Shown here in pieces: positions 39,740-44,164 of a DNA stretch of 44,285 nucleotides. Every line of letters starts with the position of its first letter. Position 1 is the stretch's first letter. The position numbers and the translations under genes are program-made. This DNA is from Candidatus Merdisoma merdipullorum (GTDB taxonomy: Bacteria; Bacillota; Clostridia; Lachnospirales; Lachnospiraceae): assembly GCA_018715645.1 (NCBI GenBank), contig DVLE01000009.1, positions 1-44,285 of the forward strand, in the 5' to 3' direction. Below the pieces are notes generated by a model, which was not told where the DNA came from, made no database searches, and saw only the letters and a list, made by a program, of their open reading frames with translations.

Positions 39740-40024
39740 TCACGCCACCTCCCCTGTTTCCACCGGCACAAAGGCATTATTCATAAACGCCAGAATATTT
39801 TCATTCTCATCCATGACTTCACAGTAATACTCAAATGTCGTATGCACGGAGCTATGTCCCAGAAGAGCAGATATCTTGACCAGCGGCACTTTCATCTCAA
39901 TCAGGATCGTGGCATACATGTGGCGCAGGCCATGAACCGTGACGTGCGGCAGACTGTTCCGGCTACACAGCTTCGTCAGCGCATTATTCAAAGCCGTCAC
40001 GCTGTGGGGCTTCCCATTCTCCAA
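39740..40024 (-). pseudogene. C-terminal fragment of a second tyrosine integrase
   Basis: This 94-codon frame carries the end of an integrase catalytic domain: HGLRHMYAT (HxxR), LLGHSSVHTT and the nucleophile tyrosine in FEYYCEVMDEN. It continues the integrase part of the chimeric gene upstream but in another frame, after a deletion at about 40021. The frame opens only with a weak TTG. As it lacks the first catalytic arginine it cannot work alone. Confidence 0.8.
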
Positions 40025-40889
40025 CGGCTTCCGGCACCCTCAGCGTCCGATAACTGTTTGGTGTCTTGGGGTCTCTTTCTATCACGCCATACTCAGTAAT
40101 CCTGCTTCCACTGCCCTTTTCTATTTTCGGGTTGGAAACAATCTGCCGATTGATATAGACAGTATTCTGCTCAAAATCAAAATCACTGAATTTCAATCCC
40201 ATGATTTCACCTTTTCTAAGCCCGCAGAACAGGCCCAAAAGGATTTCCAGATACCAGCTGCTCTTTGAAGCTGCTTTCAGGAGCACCTTTATCTTCTCTT
40301 TTCCCAATACGACAATTTTCGGTTTCTGCCGCTTATAAGGCTTTGTTTCTGTTACCGGATTCGTTCTGATATATCCGCCTGTTACAGCTTCTTTGAAAAC
40401 CATATTCAAAAAGGCTCCCACCATCCGGGTCGTAGCCTCTACCCGCTCTGAAAAAACTTCCTCAAACCAATACAGGAGATAATTCATTTTATAAGCAAAA
40501 GCCCTCTCACTCGGCAAAAATTCTTCTCTCTGAAGATTGCTGTCAACCATGATAATAGTAGCGGCATCATCATCCAAATCCCGAACAATCACTGGCATAG
40601 TTTCTTTTCCTGCCAACTCACTGGCTCTGCGCCTGCGATGTCCGGCAATCAGTTCATAGCCGCCATCCGGATCTGGCCTTGCAATCGCCGGGACCAGAAC
40701 ACCATACTGACGTACACTATCAGCAGTCTCCATCATGGCTTCATCATCTCGAACCTTAAACGGATGATTCTTGAAAGAGTGCAGATCTGGTAGCGGAATT
40801 TCCACTACTTTCTCTGATGTCCGGCTTTCCTCCGTGGAGAATAAATCATCGACTGTAGCCAGCTTTACATTTTTCGCGCTGCTTTTCAA
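39984..40889 (-). pseudogene. In-frame ParB::integrase chimera with internal deletions
   Basis: Residues 1 to about 138 are the N-terminal half of a plasmid/ICE ParB: IAGHRRRRASELAG and DSNLQREEFLPSERAFAYKM, the nucleotide- and parS-clamp region. The next residues switch abruptly to the core-binding domain of an integrase (YLLYWFEEVFSERVEATTRM), jump again to its later part (AFLNMVFKEAVTGGYI), then reach LFCGLRKGEIMGLKF with the first catalytic Arg. At RVPEAVG the frame is lost and the true continuation is in the fragment at 39740-40024. ParB's own helix-turn-helix and dimer domains are gone. The start overlaps parA by 44 bases. This is a deletion relic that removed the body of an integrative element. 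Confidence 0.82.
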
Positions 40890-41667
40890 GCTTCAACACC
40901 TCCTTGGTCAGGCTCCGATAACCGTCTGCGACCTTTCCTCCGGGATCATGGACAAAGATACTCTTACCTTCGGCGCTGGTCTCCTTTGCCCGGACCGAAT
41001 GAGGAATCTCTGTACTGAATACTTTGATCTTGCTTCCATAGGTTTCACGCAGTAATGCAGCTATCTCTTTAGCAAAATTTGTTCGATTATCCACCATGGT
41101 CAACAAAATTCCATCTATCTGCAGCTTCGGATTGATTTGCCGTTTAACCTTGCTCACTGTCTGCAATAATTGCTCCAATCCCTTTGCTGGCAGGTATTCT
41201 GCCTGAACAGGAATGATAATCCGATTGGCAGCTGCCAGCGCATTGACTGTAAGCATGCCAAGAGAAGGCTGACAGTCAATCAATACATGGGAATACCGTC
41301 CCTTCACTGTATCCAGGTACTGTTTGAGAATAGTCTCGCGGCTCATGGCATTTACCAGAGAGACTTCCATACCCGATAACTGAATATCAGCAGGCATAAG
41401 ATCCACTCCTTCTGAATGATGGATAATTCCTTCTCCATGCTGGATAGGCTGATCCATCAAGATCTTTCCCTGCACATCGGATAACGTGACCGGCAGTTCG
41501 TCAGGCCGTGGATAGCCCAGGCTTATTGTCAGACTTCCCTGCGGATCTGCATCCACAAGAAGGACTTTTTTCCCTGTCTGTGCCAGACCTATCCCTAAAT
41601 TGACACAGGTAGTGGTCTTGCCAACACCGCCTTTTTGATTTGATATTGCTATAATCTGTGTATTCAA
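40846..41667 (-). CDS. ParA/Soj-family partition ATPase
   Basis: The 273-residue ATPase has the deviant Walker A QKGGVGKTTT (11-20), switch motif DADPQGSLT and Walker B-like VLIDCQPSLG. It matches chromosome- or plasmid-partition ParA and is intact. ParA needs ParB to work, and the adjacent parB is truncated, so it is probably an orphan. The start is a TTG (41665-41667) placed 6 bases after GGAGGAG; no ATG fits. A strong hairpin with a T-run lies directly upstream in its leader. A second, broken copy of the same gene is at 43673-44164. Confidence 0.9.
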   Translation of the reverse strand: MNTQIIAISNQKGGVGKTTTCVNLGIGLAQTGKKVLLVDADPQGSLTISLGYPRPDELPVTLSDVQGKILMDQPIQHGEGIIHHSEGVDLMPADIQLSGMEVSLVNAMSRETILKQYLDTVKGRYSHVLIDCQPSLGMLTVNALAAANRIIIPVQAEYLPAKGLEQLLQTVSKVKRQINPKLQIDGILLTMVDNRTNFAKEIAALLRETYGSKIKVFSTEIPHSVRAKETSAEGKSIFVHDPGGKVADGYRSLTKEVLKLEKQREKCKAGYSR

Positions 41668-41776: not shown

Positions 41777-41947
41777 TTAATTCATGCGAATCTTCTGAAG
41801 CACCAGCAGTTTTTCTTTATCCTCTGTGCCGTACTTTACCCTTCCCCATACAGTCATACCGTAAAATAAGCGCAAAATAGCCTGGCTAGTGATGATTCGT
41901 CAACTGCCTGTCTTTGCAATACGCAGATAAAAGAATTTCTCTTTCAT
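41777..41947 (-). pseudogene. Small ORF interrupted by one in-frame TGA
   Basis: From ATG 41945-41947 a 56-codon frame reads MKEKFFYLRIAKTGS, a TGA (41900-41902), then RIITSQAILRLFYGMTVWG to TAA at 41777. It contains no other stop. I do not recognise it. It lies at the position where a gene driven from the second half-site array (41941-42016) would begin. Changing TGA to TGG would restore a basic 56-residue protein, but the frame may be fortuitous. Apart from this ORF, the parA-leader hairpin and the array, nothing else stands out in 41668-42017. Confidence 0.3.
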
Positions 41948-42016
41948 CCACTTTTATTCAATTATCGTCTGCTTTACGGCTATCATTGGACGAAAACCGC
42001 CCGTTCCGGACGCATA
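41941..42016. promoter_or_regulatory. Degenerate copy of the fic four-half-site array
   Basis: CTTTCATCCA (41941-41950), TTATCGTCTG (41962-41971), TGGACGAAAA (41987-41996) and CGGACGCATA (42007-42016) follow the same order and orientation as the operator upstream of fic, with gaps of 11, 15 and 10 bases against 10, 15 and 10 there. The first and third match the consensus; the second and fourth match 7 of 10. It ends 1 base before the fic stop codon. Confidence 0.6.
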
Positions 42017-42017
42017 G

Positions 42018-43082
42018 TTATGGTTCTATTGCATTGCTTCTCACATAAAAGGTTCCCCGCCCAGTACCGCACTTTACGATTAAGCCTTCCTCTGTAAGTC
42101 GTTTTAACGCCCCCAATACCGCAGAACGGCTTCCGCTGGGACAGGCGGCAACAACTTCCGCTCCGGTAAATTTCCCCACTTTTTCCATTACATAGGTTTT
42201 TACCACATCGTAAACCGTGCTTCTGCTGCTTTCGGACACCAAACCTACTCTCGCCTCAAACTCCGTGTAACAGGCCAAAATCACCTGGAGCATATATTTG
42301 ATAAATGGCGTAGTGTCATTTTTCTCCTCGTGCCACCCCTCATCAATCCGTTCCAGAACGTCATAATACGCATCTTTCGTCTTCTCAATCTGCTTTTCAA
42401 TACTGATATACTTCCCTACTTCGTATCCATTTCGGTAGAGAAGAAGCAGCGTAAGCAGTCGGCTCATTCTGCCATTTCCATCATTGAACGGATGTATGCA
42501 TAAAAAATCACAGATAAAAGCCGGAATCAGAATCAACGGATCAATGACTTCCATTGCCAGCATTTGTCGATAACTTTCGCAAATTGCCTCCATAGCCGGT
42601 TCCGTTTCATAAGGAGCCATGGGAACAAAACGAGTTACCACTGTTCCATCTGCTTTCGTCTCATTGATATAATTCTGCGTATTTTTAAACTGTCCTCCGT
42701 AGGACAGACCTGCATGTTTTAATAAGTCACGGTGCAGTTGCAGAATGTATGCTGGCCTGATAGGAATATAATCATGACTTTCATGAATGGTATTCAGGAC
42801 ATCCCGATAACCAATAATCTCTTTTTCATCACGGCTCTTCGGCGTGGTCTTGTCATCCATCAGCTGCCGTATCCTGGTAGCGGTCGTAACAATGCCTTCA
42901 ATTTTATTGGATGCCTCCGTACTTTGTATCCGTGCGATTTCCACCAGGCGTTCCAATTCAACCGGCTTCTGCCGGATAAACAGCTCCTGACGTCCTTTGC
43001 ACTCATGGATTTTCGCAATGTAAGACAGAACTTCCCCATCCCACATCCCGTCTGCCAACTTCATATAATCAAAATTTCTCAT
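42018..43082 (-). CDS. Fic-domain protein with inhibitory helix and C-terminal winged helix
   Basis: The 354-residue protein carries a complete Fic active site HPFNDGNGR (197-205), so transfer of AMP or another nucleotide moiety to a target hydroxyl is expected. An N-terminal self-inhibitory motif of the (S/T)xxxE(G/N) type is present (Ser58 to Glu62-Gly63), placing it among autoinhibited class II Fic proteins. The last 70 residues (about 285-350, VYDVVKTYVM, GSRSAVLGALKRLTEEGLI) look like a winged helix-turn-helix, so the protein may bind DNA. The promoter region contains four symmetric half-sites, an obvious candidate target. No antitoxin gene is adjacent. It lies between relics of integrative elements. 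Confidence 0.9.
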   Translation of the reverse strand: MRNFDYMKLADGMWDGEVLSYIAKIHECKGRQELFIRQKPVELERLVEIARIQSTEASNKIEGIVTTATRIRQLMDDKTTPKSRDEKEIIGYRDVLNTIHESHDYIPIRPAYILQLHRDLLKHAGLSYGGQFKNTQNYINETKADGTVVTRFVPMAPYETEPAMEAICESYRQMLAMEVIDPLILIPAFICDFLCIHPFNDGNGRMSRLLTLLLLYRNGYEVGKYISIEKQIEKTKDAYYDVLERIDEGWHEEKNDTTPFIKYMLQVILACYTEFEARVGLVSESSRSTVYDVVKTYVMEKVGKFTGAEVVAACPSGSRSAVLGALKRLTEEGLIVKCGTGRGTFYVRSNAIEP

Positions 43083-43093
43083 ATTTTACCCGG

Positions 43094-43168
43094 CTTTTTC
43101 ATCCAGCCTTTTATCCTTTCGTCCATATTGTACCTCATTTTGGACGAAAAATTCAAGAAGTGGATGAA
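43094..43168. promoter_or_regulatory. Four-half-site concentric palindromic operator of fic
   Basis: TTTTCATCCA (43094-43103), CTTTCGTCCA (43114-43123), TGGACGAAAA (43139-43148) and TGGATGAAAA (43159-43168). The outer pair are exact reverse complements and the inner pair match at 9 of 10. Both pairs share the same centre, 43131. Gaps are 10, 15 and 10 bases. The fic -10 box sits between the inner sites and the -35 box between the third and fourth, so occupancy would block transcription. Confidence 0.82.
43125..43154 (-). promoter_or_regulatory. Promoter of fic
   Basis: TTGAAT (43149-43154) and TACAAT (43125-43130) on the minus strand with an 18-base spacer, embedded in the four-site palindrome. 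The start site is expected near 43118, about 35 bases before the ATG. Confidence 0.6.
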
Positions 43169-43226
43169 AATAATATCTAAAGCATTTCAGATATTGCAGG
43201 GGCAGCATTGCTGCCCCTGGCTAAAA

Positions 43227-43469
43227 TCAACCGAATAATCTGGTCAGCTGCGGTACTAAAATCATGCCAATGAGAGCGACACCGCCGCCGGCTACCAACT
43301 GTTTCCTACCTTGGCTTTTTGCTGATGTGTGATAAAAAAATAATAGAAATGTAAAAATTTTGCCGACAAAGCTGTAATAAATCTCAATGTCCTGCCTGTG
43401 GATGCCGTTCTCGTCATAACTGCACTCATGCACAACGATTTTCTCAATCATTTCCCGCAAATTCCTCAA
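43227..43469 (-). pseudogene. Chimera of serine-recombinase tail (DUF4368) and Maff2 C-terminus
   Basis: The first 38 codons (43356-43469) read LREMIEKIVVHECSYDENG then IEIYYSFVGKI, the C-terminal DUF4368 region of large serine recombinases from Tn4451-like or ICE elements. After a short AT-rich joint, codons 49-80 (43227-43325) read SAKSQGRKQLVAGGGVALIG then LVPQLTRLFG, the C-terminus of the small membrane protein Maff2 found in conjugative elements. Both parts are fragments joined in frame by deletion. Opening with a TTG that overlaps the preceding stop, it is unlikely to be functional. A GC-rich hairpin (AGGGGCAGC/GCTGCCCCT, 43197-43219) follows. Confidence 0.72.
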
Positions 43470-43673: not shown

Positions 43674-44164
43674 CAGATAGCCAAGCCCTTTGCCGGTAAA
43701 TACTCTACCTGAACGGGGATTATAATCCGATTAGCAGCAACCAAAGCGTTAACCGTAAGCATACCCAGCGAAAGCTGACAGTCAATCAGAATATGGAAAT
43801 ATTGGCCCTTTAATGTGTCGAGATACTGCCGGAGAATCATCTCCCGGCTCATAGCATTTACCAGAGATACCTCCATGCCGGATAACTGAATATCCGCAGG
43901 CATGAGATCCACTCTCTCTGAATGGTGAGTAATCCCTTCCCCAGAGCGAATCGGCTGATCTGTTAAGACCTTCTCCATCATGTCAGAAAGCGTGACCGGC
44001 TGCTTGTCCGGCTGCGGATAACCCAAACTAATGGTCAGACTGCCCTGTGGGTCAGCGTCCACCAGTAAAACATCCTTTCCTTCCTGCGCCAGCCCTATGC
44101 CCAAATTGACATAGGTGGTGGTCTTGCCAACTCCTCCCTTCTGATTTGAGATGGAAAGATAGTG
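43673..44164 (-). pseudogene. Second parA copy, broken at both ends
   Basis: The open region encodes ISNQKGGVGKTTT, DADPQGSLTISLGY and ILIDCQLSLG and stops after YLPAKGLAI. It is strongly similar to residues 8 to about 173 of the intact ParA at 40846-41667. The N-terminal codons are out of frame (TGA at 44165-44167, then HYLSISNQ), and the C-terminal 100 residues are lost at a joint with a sigma-like remnant. It belongs to a different, largely deleted integrative element. Confidence 0.85.

Follow-up and report, generated by a model that had tools for sequence, protein, structure and literature searches.

The window, as we call the whole 44,285-nt stretch of DNA analysed here, comes from Candidatus Merdisoma merdipullorum and carries on its minus strand a gene for a Fic protein. 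The gene and the parts of its product to which we refer below are as follows:

42018-43082, minus strand: fic gene, an open reading frame of 354 aa, class II Fic by motif, with a predicted C-terminal winged helix (Pfam Fic, 8.4e-17)
42894-42911, minus strand: inhibitory motif SNKIEG, residues 58-63, of the pattern [ST]xxxE[GN], read from the sequence
42468-42494, minus strand: catalytic Fic motif HPFNDGNGR, residues 197-205, read from the sequence
42090-42128, minus strand: predicted recognition helix, residues 319-331, from the AlphaFold2 secondary structure
42114-42116, minus strand: codon of residue 323 (Leu), the proposed specificity residue, from the top residue-base couple of our scan

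The protein is assigned to class II by motif because both HPFNDGNGR and SNKIEG are present. Both signatures are well kept in the family: among 233 homologues of at least 320 aa, HPFx[DE]GN[GK]R was found in 224 and [ST]xxxE[GN], N-terminal to the Fic core, in 231. An AlphaFold2 model built from a 31-row alignment had a moderate mean pLDDT of 77.3, with values below 50 for residues 59-83, the poorly modelled stretch in which the inhibitory motif sits. The C-terminal winged helix proposed in an earlier note on this DNA appears in the model, as a prediction, with helices at residues 290-300, 307-313 and 319-331 and wing strands at 335-338 and 345-348; Pfam gave no match for this part of the protein. 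Two parA copies flank fic (41175-41646 and 43681-44152; 472 nt, 77% identity), the upstream one being truncated. A single frame at 39984-40889 combines the N-terminal domain of ParB with part of a phage integrase, and an 80-aa frame at 43227-43469 joins the end of DUF4368 to the end of Maff2. Both frames are likely deletion fusions, the latter of mobile-element genes.

The region ahead of fic contains an array of repeated half-sites, which we call the 5' operator, interleaved with a promoter-like pair of boxes:

43161-43170, minus strand: outer half-site, TTTTCATCCA, upstream of the -35 box
43151-43156, minus strand: -35-like TTGAAT, from the promoter scan
43141-43150, minus strand: inner half-site, TTTTCGTCCA, within the -35/-10 spacer
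43127-43132, minus strand: -10-like TACAAT, from the promoter scan
43116-43125, plus strand: inner half-site, CTTTCGTCCA, with one mismatch, just downstream of the -10 box
43096-43105, plus strand: outer half-site, TTTTCATCCA, 14 to 23 bases ahead of the start codon

The earlier note had described four half-sites of the TTTTCRTCCA type arranged as two palindromes, and all four are present, one of them with a single mismatch. The quartet agrees at 37 of 40 letters. When the whole window was dinucleotide-shuffled 60 times, the best quartet scored 29, and none came to 36 or more. The two pairs do share one centre, which we place at 43133 and not at 43131 as had been claimed, and the range given for the array, 43094-43168, was shifted by the same two bases. 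The gaps measure 10/15/10, exactly as reported, with centre-to-centre distances of about 20, 24 and 20 bp. A minus-strand pair TTGAAT-18-TACAAT is bracketed by the half-sites, where the -35 and -10 boxes had been said to lie. As the promoter scan was not above chance (2 found versus a mean of 2.4 in shuffles) and shuffles yield equal promoter-like matches, the promoter call rests on the position of the boxes and on the same arrangement in relatives. In the organism's own genome (87% complete), inverted pairs of the motif with 8-50 bp between them occur only at the fic promoter and directly behind fic.

At E 1e-50, profile searches detected the family in 43 of 398 genomes sampled from the phylum, 60 of 391 from the class and 83 of 299 from the family, the samples overlapping. 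Relatives fetched among GTDB species were the best 80 of 96, and fragmentary profile matches were mostly left out of the fetched loci. A fic reading frame was found in 256 loci, in 246 of which the start was near that of the profile; 236 of these had at least 95 bp of upstream sequence and a distinct upstream region. We called half-sites in these 236 regions de novo, using no half-site motif. A perfect inner pair (9 of 9) was present in 125 of 236 regions but in only 1.7% of 1,180 shuffles, and outer half-sites matching at 8 of 9 or better were present in 64 regions on the left and 82 on the right, compared with 0.6% and 0.85% of shuffles. The final caller assigned four half-sites to 117 regions, three to 82, two to 22 and fewer to 15; on 944 shuffles it assigned four in 1.8% and three in 12.4%. 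Half-sites upstream of close fic homologues, for which the earlier note had suggested a search and whose absence it had named as speaking against its reading, are in fact common: three or more occur in 199 of 236 regions, against 14% of shuffles under this lenient cut, with fewer than three in the other 37. Under a stricter cut, four half-sites remain in 90 of 236 regions and in 0.1% of shuffles.

The layout is conserved more strictly than the half-site. With the caller allowing 18-22 bp between outer and inner half-sites and slightly favouring 20, the distance was 19-21 bp in 128 of 132 well-scored cases on the left and 122 of 127 on the right, and exactly 20 bp in 87 and 84 of them, respectively. 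The inner centre-to-centre distance was 20-24 bp in 144 of 182 loci. The half-site itself varies by clade (CRTCC, GTTCA, CTCCC, CCCTT, CKCCTA, TGCAT, CCATCA and others): C[GA]TCC stands at the inner site of 55 of 236 loci, and many others have a different half-site in the same layout, among them an Acidovorax plasmid with half-sites of the GGGG type. Besides this plasmid, the layout was seen in Lachnospiraceae and other gut bacteria and in Lactobacillus and other plasmids, with differing neighbours. The inner palindrome, searched for in 299 related genomes, gave 16 places in 15 of them; 10 of these places belong to a fic gene or fragment, with the fic reading frames confirmed. No wider regulon was seen in these genomes, the 6 sites away from fic equalling the 6 genomes with a reversed control pattern. 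One promoter-like operator copy (L299, G503:C12:1358-1390) lies about 1.4 kb from a contig start, in a fetched locus with no fic reading frame.

To relate the changing half-site to the protein, we used 182 of the 236 rows (inner pair matching at 7 of 9 or better, at least one outer half-site and the winged helix present), a set behind which stands the lenient cut that 14% of shuffles pass at three or more half-sites. These were thinned to 157 rows for residue-base counts and the couple scan and to 104 for distance windows. Operator positions were aligned by a register rule, offset 11 from the centre for odd and 10.5 for even spacing, which was set after a first look at the data. Under the same rule, the scan covered 11 operator offsets (6-16) and 354 residues, 3,894 couples in all, a number that includes unscored residue columns with more than 10% gaps. 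The first of the 3,894 couples, in the 157 rows, was residue 323 with offset 11. This residue is the fifth in the predicted recognition helix, and 23 of the top 25 couples fall outside that helix.

The residue-base counts were as follows. Of the 75 rows with glutamate at 323, 67 have C on both arms, 7 have A on both and 1 has CA; leucine goes with T on both arms in 45 of 46 rows, and phenylalanine in 4 of 4. Of the 24 rows with glutamine or asparagine, 16 have A on both arms, 2 each have C or T and 4 have mixed bases, with C at offset 11 in 2 of 14 rows with glutamine. Examples of half-site types among natural homologues of the residue classes are:

L323: TTCGTCCA
F323: AGTTCAA
E323: CTCCC, CCCTT and TGCAT
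R323: GGGG (Acidovorax plasmid)

A tree test on the 151 of 157 rows with agreeing arms gave 5 supported independent contrasts between E and non-E, of which 4.6 on average went the same way and 0 the opposite way (sign test, median p 0.0625). Viral contigs and plasmids supplied a later set, which omitted loci with an upstream region identical to a known one or with an incomplete fic and was scored under the register rule as already fixed; 32 of the 34 loci scored were of high confidence. There, E323 went with CC in 24 of 25 loci and AA in 1, and R323 with GG in 2 of 2, these being plasmid loci from different phyla; the others were L with TT (1), K with TT (2, with near-identical upstream regions), N with TT (1) and G with AA (1). 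The pattern suggests that residue 323 is the amino acid that reads the operator base lying 11 positions away from the centre.

We also compared operator and protein distances in windows along the protein. Over all pairs of the 104 nonredundant proteins, with the Fic core allowed for, the recognition helix (316-325) ranked 1 of 345, followed by the wing. Before thinning, with all 182 rows, the wing came first, and no recognition-helix window ranked above eighth (0.216, little more than the 0.205 of the best core window). Among closer pairs, at core distances of 0.15-0.45, 0.15-0.40 and 0.2-0.5, the recognition helix came 11th, 17th and 4th of 345, and under the first two cuts some Fic-core windows equalled or beat it. 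The partial distance correlation is weaker evidence than the residue-base couple.

The window contains a further, less regular array at the other end of the gene:

41941-42017, no strand assigned: second operator, degenerate, immediately behind the stop codon of fic, score 14.0 of 18
41987-41996, minus strand, and 41941-41950, plus strand: its good half-sites
near 41963-41971 and 42005-42016: its weak half-sites

Such a 3' operator, with the same half-site and inner spacing as its 5' counterpart and a score of at least 14 of 18, was found in 47 of 182 loci, the window included, compared with 0.4% for a foreign half-site and 0.0% inside the gene; one of the 47 (L213, 82 nt behind the stop codon) may be a chance match and two (L129 and L130) are near-duplicates. 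Counted by nonredundant loci, the figure is 25 of 139, and better 3' operators than that of the window exist in homologues. The first inner half-site starts no further than 2 nt from the stop codon in 26 of the 47, and 36 of the 47 copies have an outer half-site, compared with none of 117 low-scoring stretches used as background. At the matching place, a -10 box is present in 7 of 47 3' operators versus 36 of 47 5' operators. The second array is common with the half-sites CRTCC (22 of 53), GTTCA (7 of 10) and CCCTT (7 of 20) and absent with TGCAT (0 of 20) and CTCCC (0 of 9). In one locus (L038), the 5' and 3' copies have in common a 41-nt direct repeat (95%), and in three (L153, L161 and L240) the 3' copies resemble, by eye, intrinsic terminators, with a hairpin followed by T. 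The 3' operator might act in DNA looping, as a roadblock or as the end of a unit.

The last of these roles touches on how the loci are bounded. We compared 83 pairs of loci with 84-99.5% identical DNA for breaks of homology on both flanks; the pairs have loci in common and are not independent. Of the 30 pairs in which both members have a 3' operator, 21 had a left break between -67 and -108 relative to the start codon and 19 a right break between +48 and +67 relative to the stop codon, in both cases about the outer half-sites. Of the 25 pairs in which neither has one, 16 had a right break no more than 25 nt from the stop codon. Among 230 loci, 15 distinct ones have fic between direct repeats of at least 34 nt and 79% identity. 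The same was true of 1 of 700 pseudo-cassettes, controls whose mobile-element content was unmatched; some of the repeats around fic are low-complexity sequence or gene duplicates, and the one in L038 is the operator itself. In the scanned flanks of 700 nt, the repeats range in length from about 36 to 320 nt.

Several loci have direct repeats of 46-213 nt (87-99%) on both sides of the operator-fic unit (L017, L006, L057, L052, L085, L159 and L160). The repeat of L017 (-312..-155 and +57..+213) resembles the 3' end of the upstream gene, its right copy beginning at the 3' operator. No empty insertion site was seen for one flank of the window in 41 genomes including its own, a search in which one flank could hardly show one, nor for the right flanks of L013 and L017 in a weak search of their genera (2 genomes each, including the source); in both of the latter searches the flank repeats on the other side of fic. 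It is conceivable, if on balance doubtful, that units of operator array, fic and operator array move about, ending at their own operators, and diversify like phage immunity groups, so that different half-sites coexist in a cell and a resident unit silences an incoming one of the same type, the state of the Fic enzyme perhaps setting the switch.

No gene other than fic is widely shared among the loci: the flanks have no common partner, and the commonest flank family occurs in 5 of 74 loci. Known Fic toxin-antitoxin pairs include the Doc/Phd and FicT/FicA types. We considered such a pair here and rejected it, finding no conserved small antitoxin frame (30-120 aa, within 700 nt) beside fic in 246 loci; the commonest small-frame family, in 10 of the 246, lies downstream on the other strand. 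A frame whose product starts M[IL]TGELKN.ID comes after fic in 17 of 239 loci (L040, L171-L173, L176, L180, L183, L187-L189, L226-L228, L233-L235 and L238); in 16 of the 17 it begins -4 to +15 nt from the fic stop codon. This start resembles, we presume, that of the type I restriction-modification protein HsdM, and with such a frame at the stop codon the Fic operator may therefore control a restriction-modification operon there. In a few loci of the CRTCC class (L012, L013, L015 and L018), what we take by eye to be a PIN-like gene lies downstream of the 3' operator. Fourteen within-genome pairs, hand-picked from genomes with two near-full fic genes and leaving aside a third fic of G599, differ in half-site in 13 cases by raw count, with some half-sites of the "other" class uncertain; the exception, with the same half-sites, is G498, whose two genes have 86% identical cores.

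Repression of fic by its own product, as the earlier note had proposed, gains support from the layout in 199 of 236 upstream regions and from the co-variation of residue 323 with the operator base, and on these comparisons of sequence we hold it to be very probable. In this mechanism, the C-terminal winged helix would bind the four TTTTCRTCCA-type half-sites that straddle the promoter, two on each side about 20 bp apart and probably occupied by two dimers, and bound Fic would block RNA polymerase. Residue 323 in the recognition helix would read the base at offset 11, and in part of the family the 3' operator would add another array for binding, which might serve to loop the DNA or to block read-through.

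Since residue 323 co-varies with the operator base, the Fic protein itself is the likeliest reader of the sites. That another regulator encoded by the host should bind them, with Fic uninvolved, seems very unlikely: the layout recurs across hosts and plasmids with different neighbours, changes of half-site accompany a residue of Fic itself, and the 299 genomes have no excess of the motif away from fic (6 sites versus 6 control genomes). The residue-base correlation could in principle reflect only shared ancestry, clades differing in both by chance, and the small number of independent changes (5 supported contrasts) and the equally good correlation of core windows in close pairs are what such an origin would give. 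The top couple of the scan nevertheless falls on the predicted recognition helix; pairings of E with C, R with G, N or Q with A and hydrophobic residues with T are familiar from protein-DNA contacts; and, once the rule had been fixed, R with G appeared in two plasmid loci belonging to different phyla. We therefore think that ancestry alone is quite an improbable source of the correlation.

Two further readings concern what the arrays do. The repeats might act as RNA, forming hairpins or terminators in or just after the fic transcript, instead of as protein-binding DNA, and the terminator-like look of several 3' copies fits this. However, two of the four promoter half-sites, being upstream of the -10 box, are outside the transcript, and the outer half-sites, about 20 bp off, are no part of the inner hairpin and yet accompany 36 of 47 3' copies but none of the 117 background stretches, all of which makes a role as RNA extremely unlikely. 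Alternatively, the arrays might chiefly be the ends of a small mobile unit, operator-fic-operator, with repression as a by-product. The homology breaks near the outer half-sites in 21 (left) and 19 (right) of 30 nonindependent pairs, together with the excess of flanking direct repeats over the pseudo-cassettes, whose mobile content was unmatched, speak for such a unit. Against it, there is no recombinase within and no fixed repeat length, the weak search of one flank in few genomes showed no empty site, and the overlap with the promoter fits repression directly; we regard mobility as the chief function as unlikely.

Among the genomes searched, winged-helix Fic proteins turn up often, and more than 200 natural protein-operator pairs in one layout offer a direct route for testing self-regulation, in which one residue would predict one operator base of unstudied members. 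The system is also a compact one in which to study a possible coupling of DNA binding to the AMPylation state, which the earlier note had thought plausible and which the excerpts available on CbFic2 report, and the 3' operator and the unit-like boundaries raise the testable question of how fic genes spread.

Among solved structures, the closest relative is 8UQU, a Fic family protein of Bordetella bronchiseptica (E 6.4e-82, query residues 12-348), whose structure comprises the N-terminal domain only; a literature search by this code returned no relevant paper. The Fic fold is common to the protein of the window and SoFic (PDB 3eqx and 3zcn). A PADLOC model of the SoFic anti-phage system matched residues 41-352 at 2.8e-42, the model having no stated cut-off. 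Orthology with SoFic was rejected, the NCBIfam SoFic equivalog scoring 64.1 against a cut-off of 550. DNA binding by SoFic is, in the available excerpts of PMC10628234, described as not demonstrated.

Closer in behavior is CccR of Yersinia pseudotuberculosis, a class II Fic protein with a C-terminal helix-turn-helix (HTH) that, according to the available excerpts of its description, represses its own promoter through AGATAATCAT-N26-ATGATAATCT, inverted repeats near the -35 and -10 boxes whose recognition requires a dimer, and that is also a type VI secretion system (T6SS) effector with regulatory and toxic activities reported to be independent (PMC9755527). The same excerpts describe no 3' operator such as that found here (PMC9755527). 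As far as they go, CccR and the present protein have in common the class II Fic domain, the C-terminal HTH (predicted in our case) and inverted repeats over the own promoter, whereas CccR has two 10-bp half-sites 26 bp apart and the present array four with gaps of 10/15/10. In sequence CccR is distant: chain 7xux, which we take to be CccR, gave a phmmer E of 0.0012 and a TM of 0.49-0.54 against this Fic. CbFic2 of Coxiella burnetii is likewise a class II Fic protein with a C-terminal winged helix that binds DNA, and its excerpted description proposes that DNA binding through the HTH switches it from AMPylation to deAMPylation (PMC10628234); those excerpts describe no operator of its own, unlike the operator at the own promoter here. 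Because CccR represses its own promoter and CbFic2 is regulated by HTH-DNA binding, as far as the excerpts tell, autorepression by a Fic-HTH protein is of a known kind, and CccR was the only autorepressing Fic found in the open-licence PMC literature as excerpted. A four-half-site or 3' Fic operator had no precedent in that literature, seen in excerpts that included PMC9755527, PMC10628234 and PMC12249575. Neither the residue-base code nor the 3' operator, nor a four-site layout recurring across phyla, turned up in the literature searched. The general design recalls the phage repressor operators, such as lambda OR/OL, in which a self-repressing gene has several half-sites, operators on two sides and specificity classes. 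Here, unlike in lambda OR/OL, the proposed repressor forms one protein with a Fic enzyme, and the second operator comes after the repressor's own stop codon.
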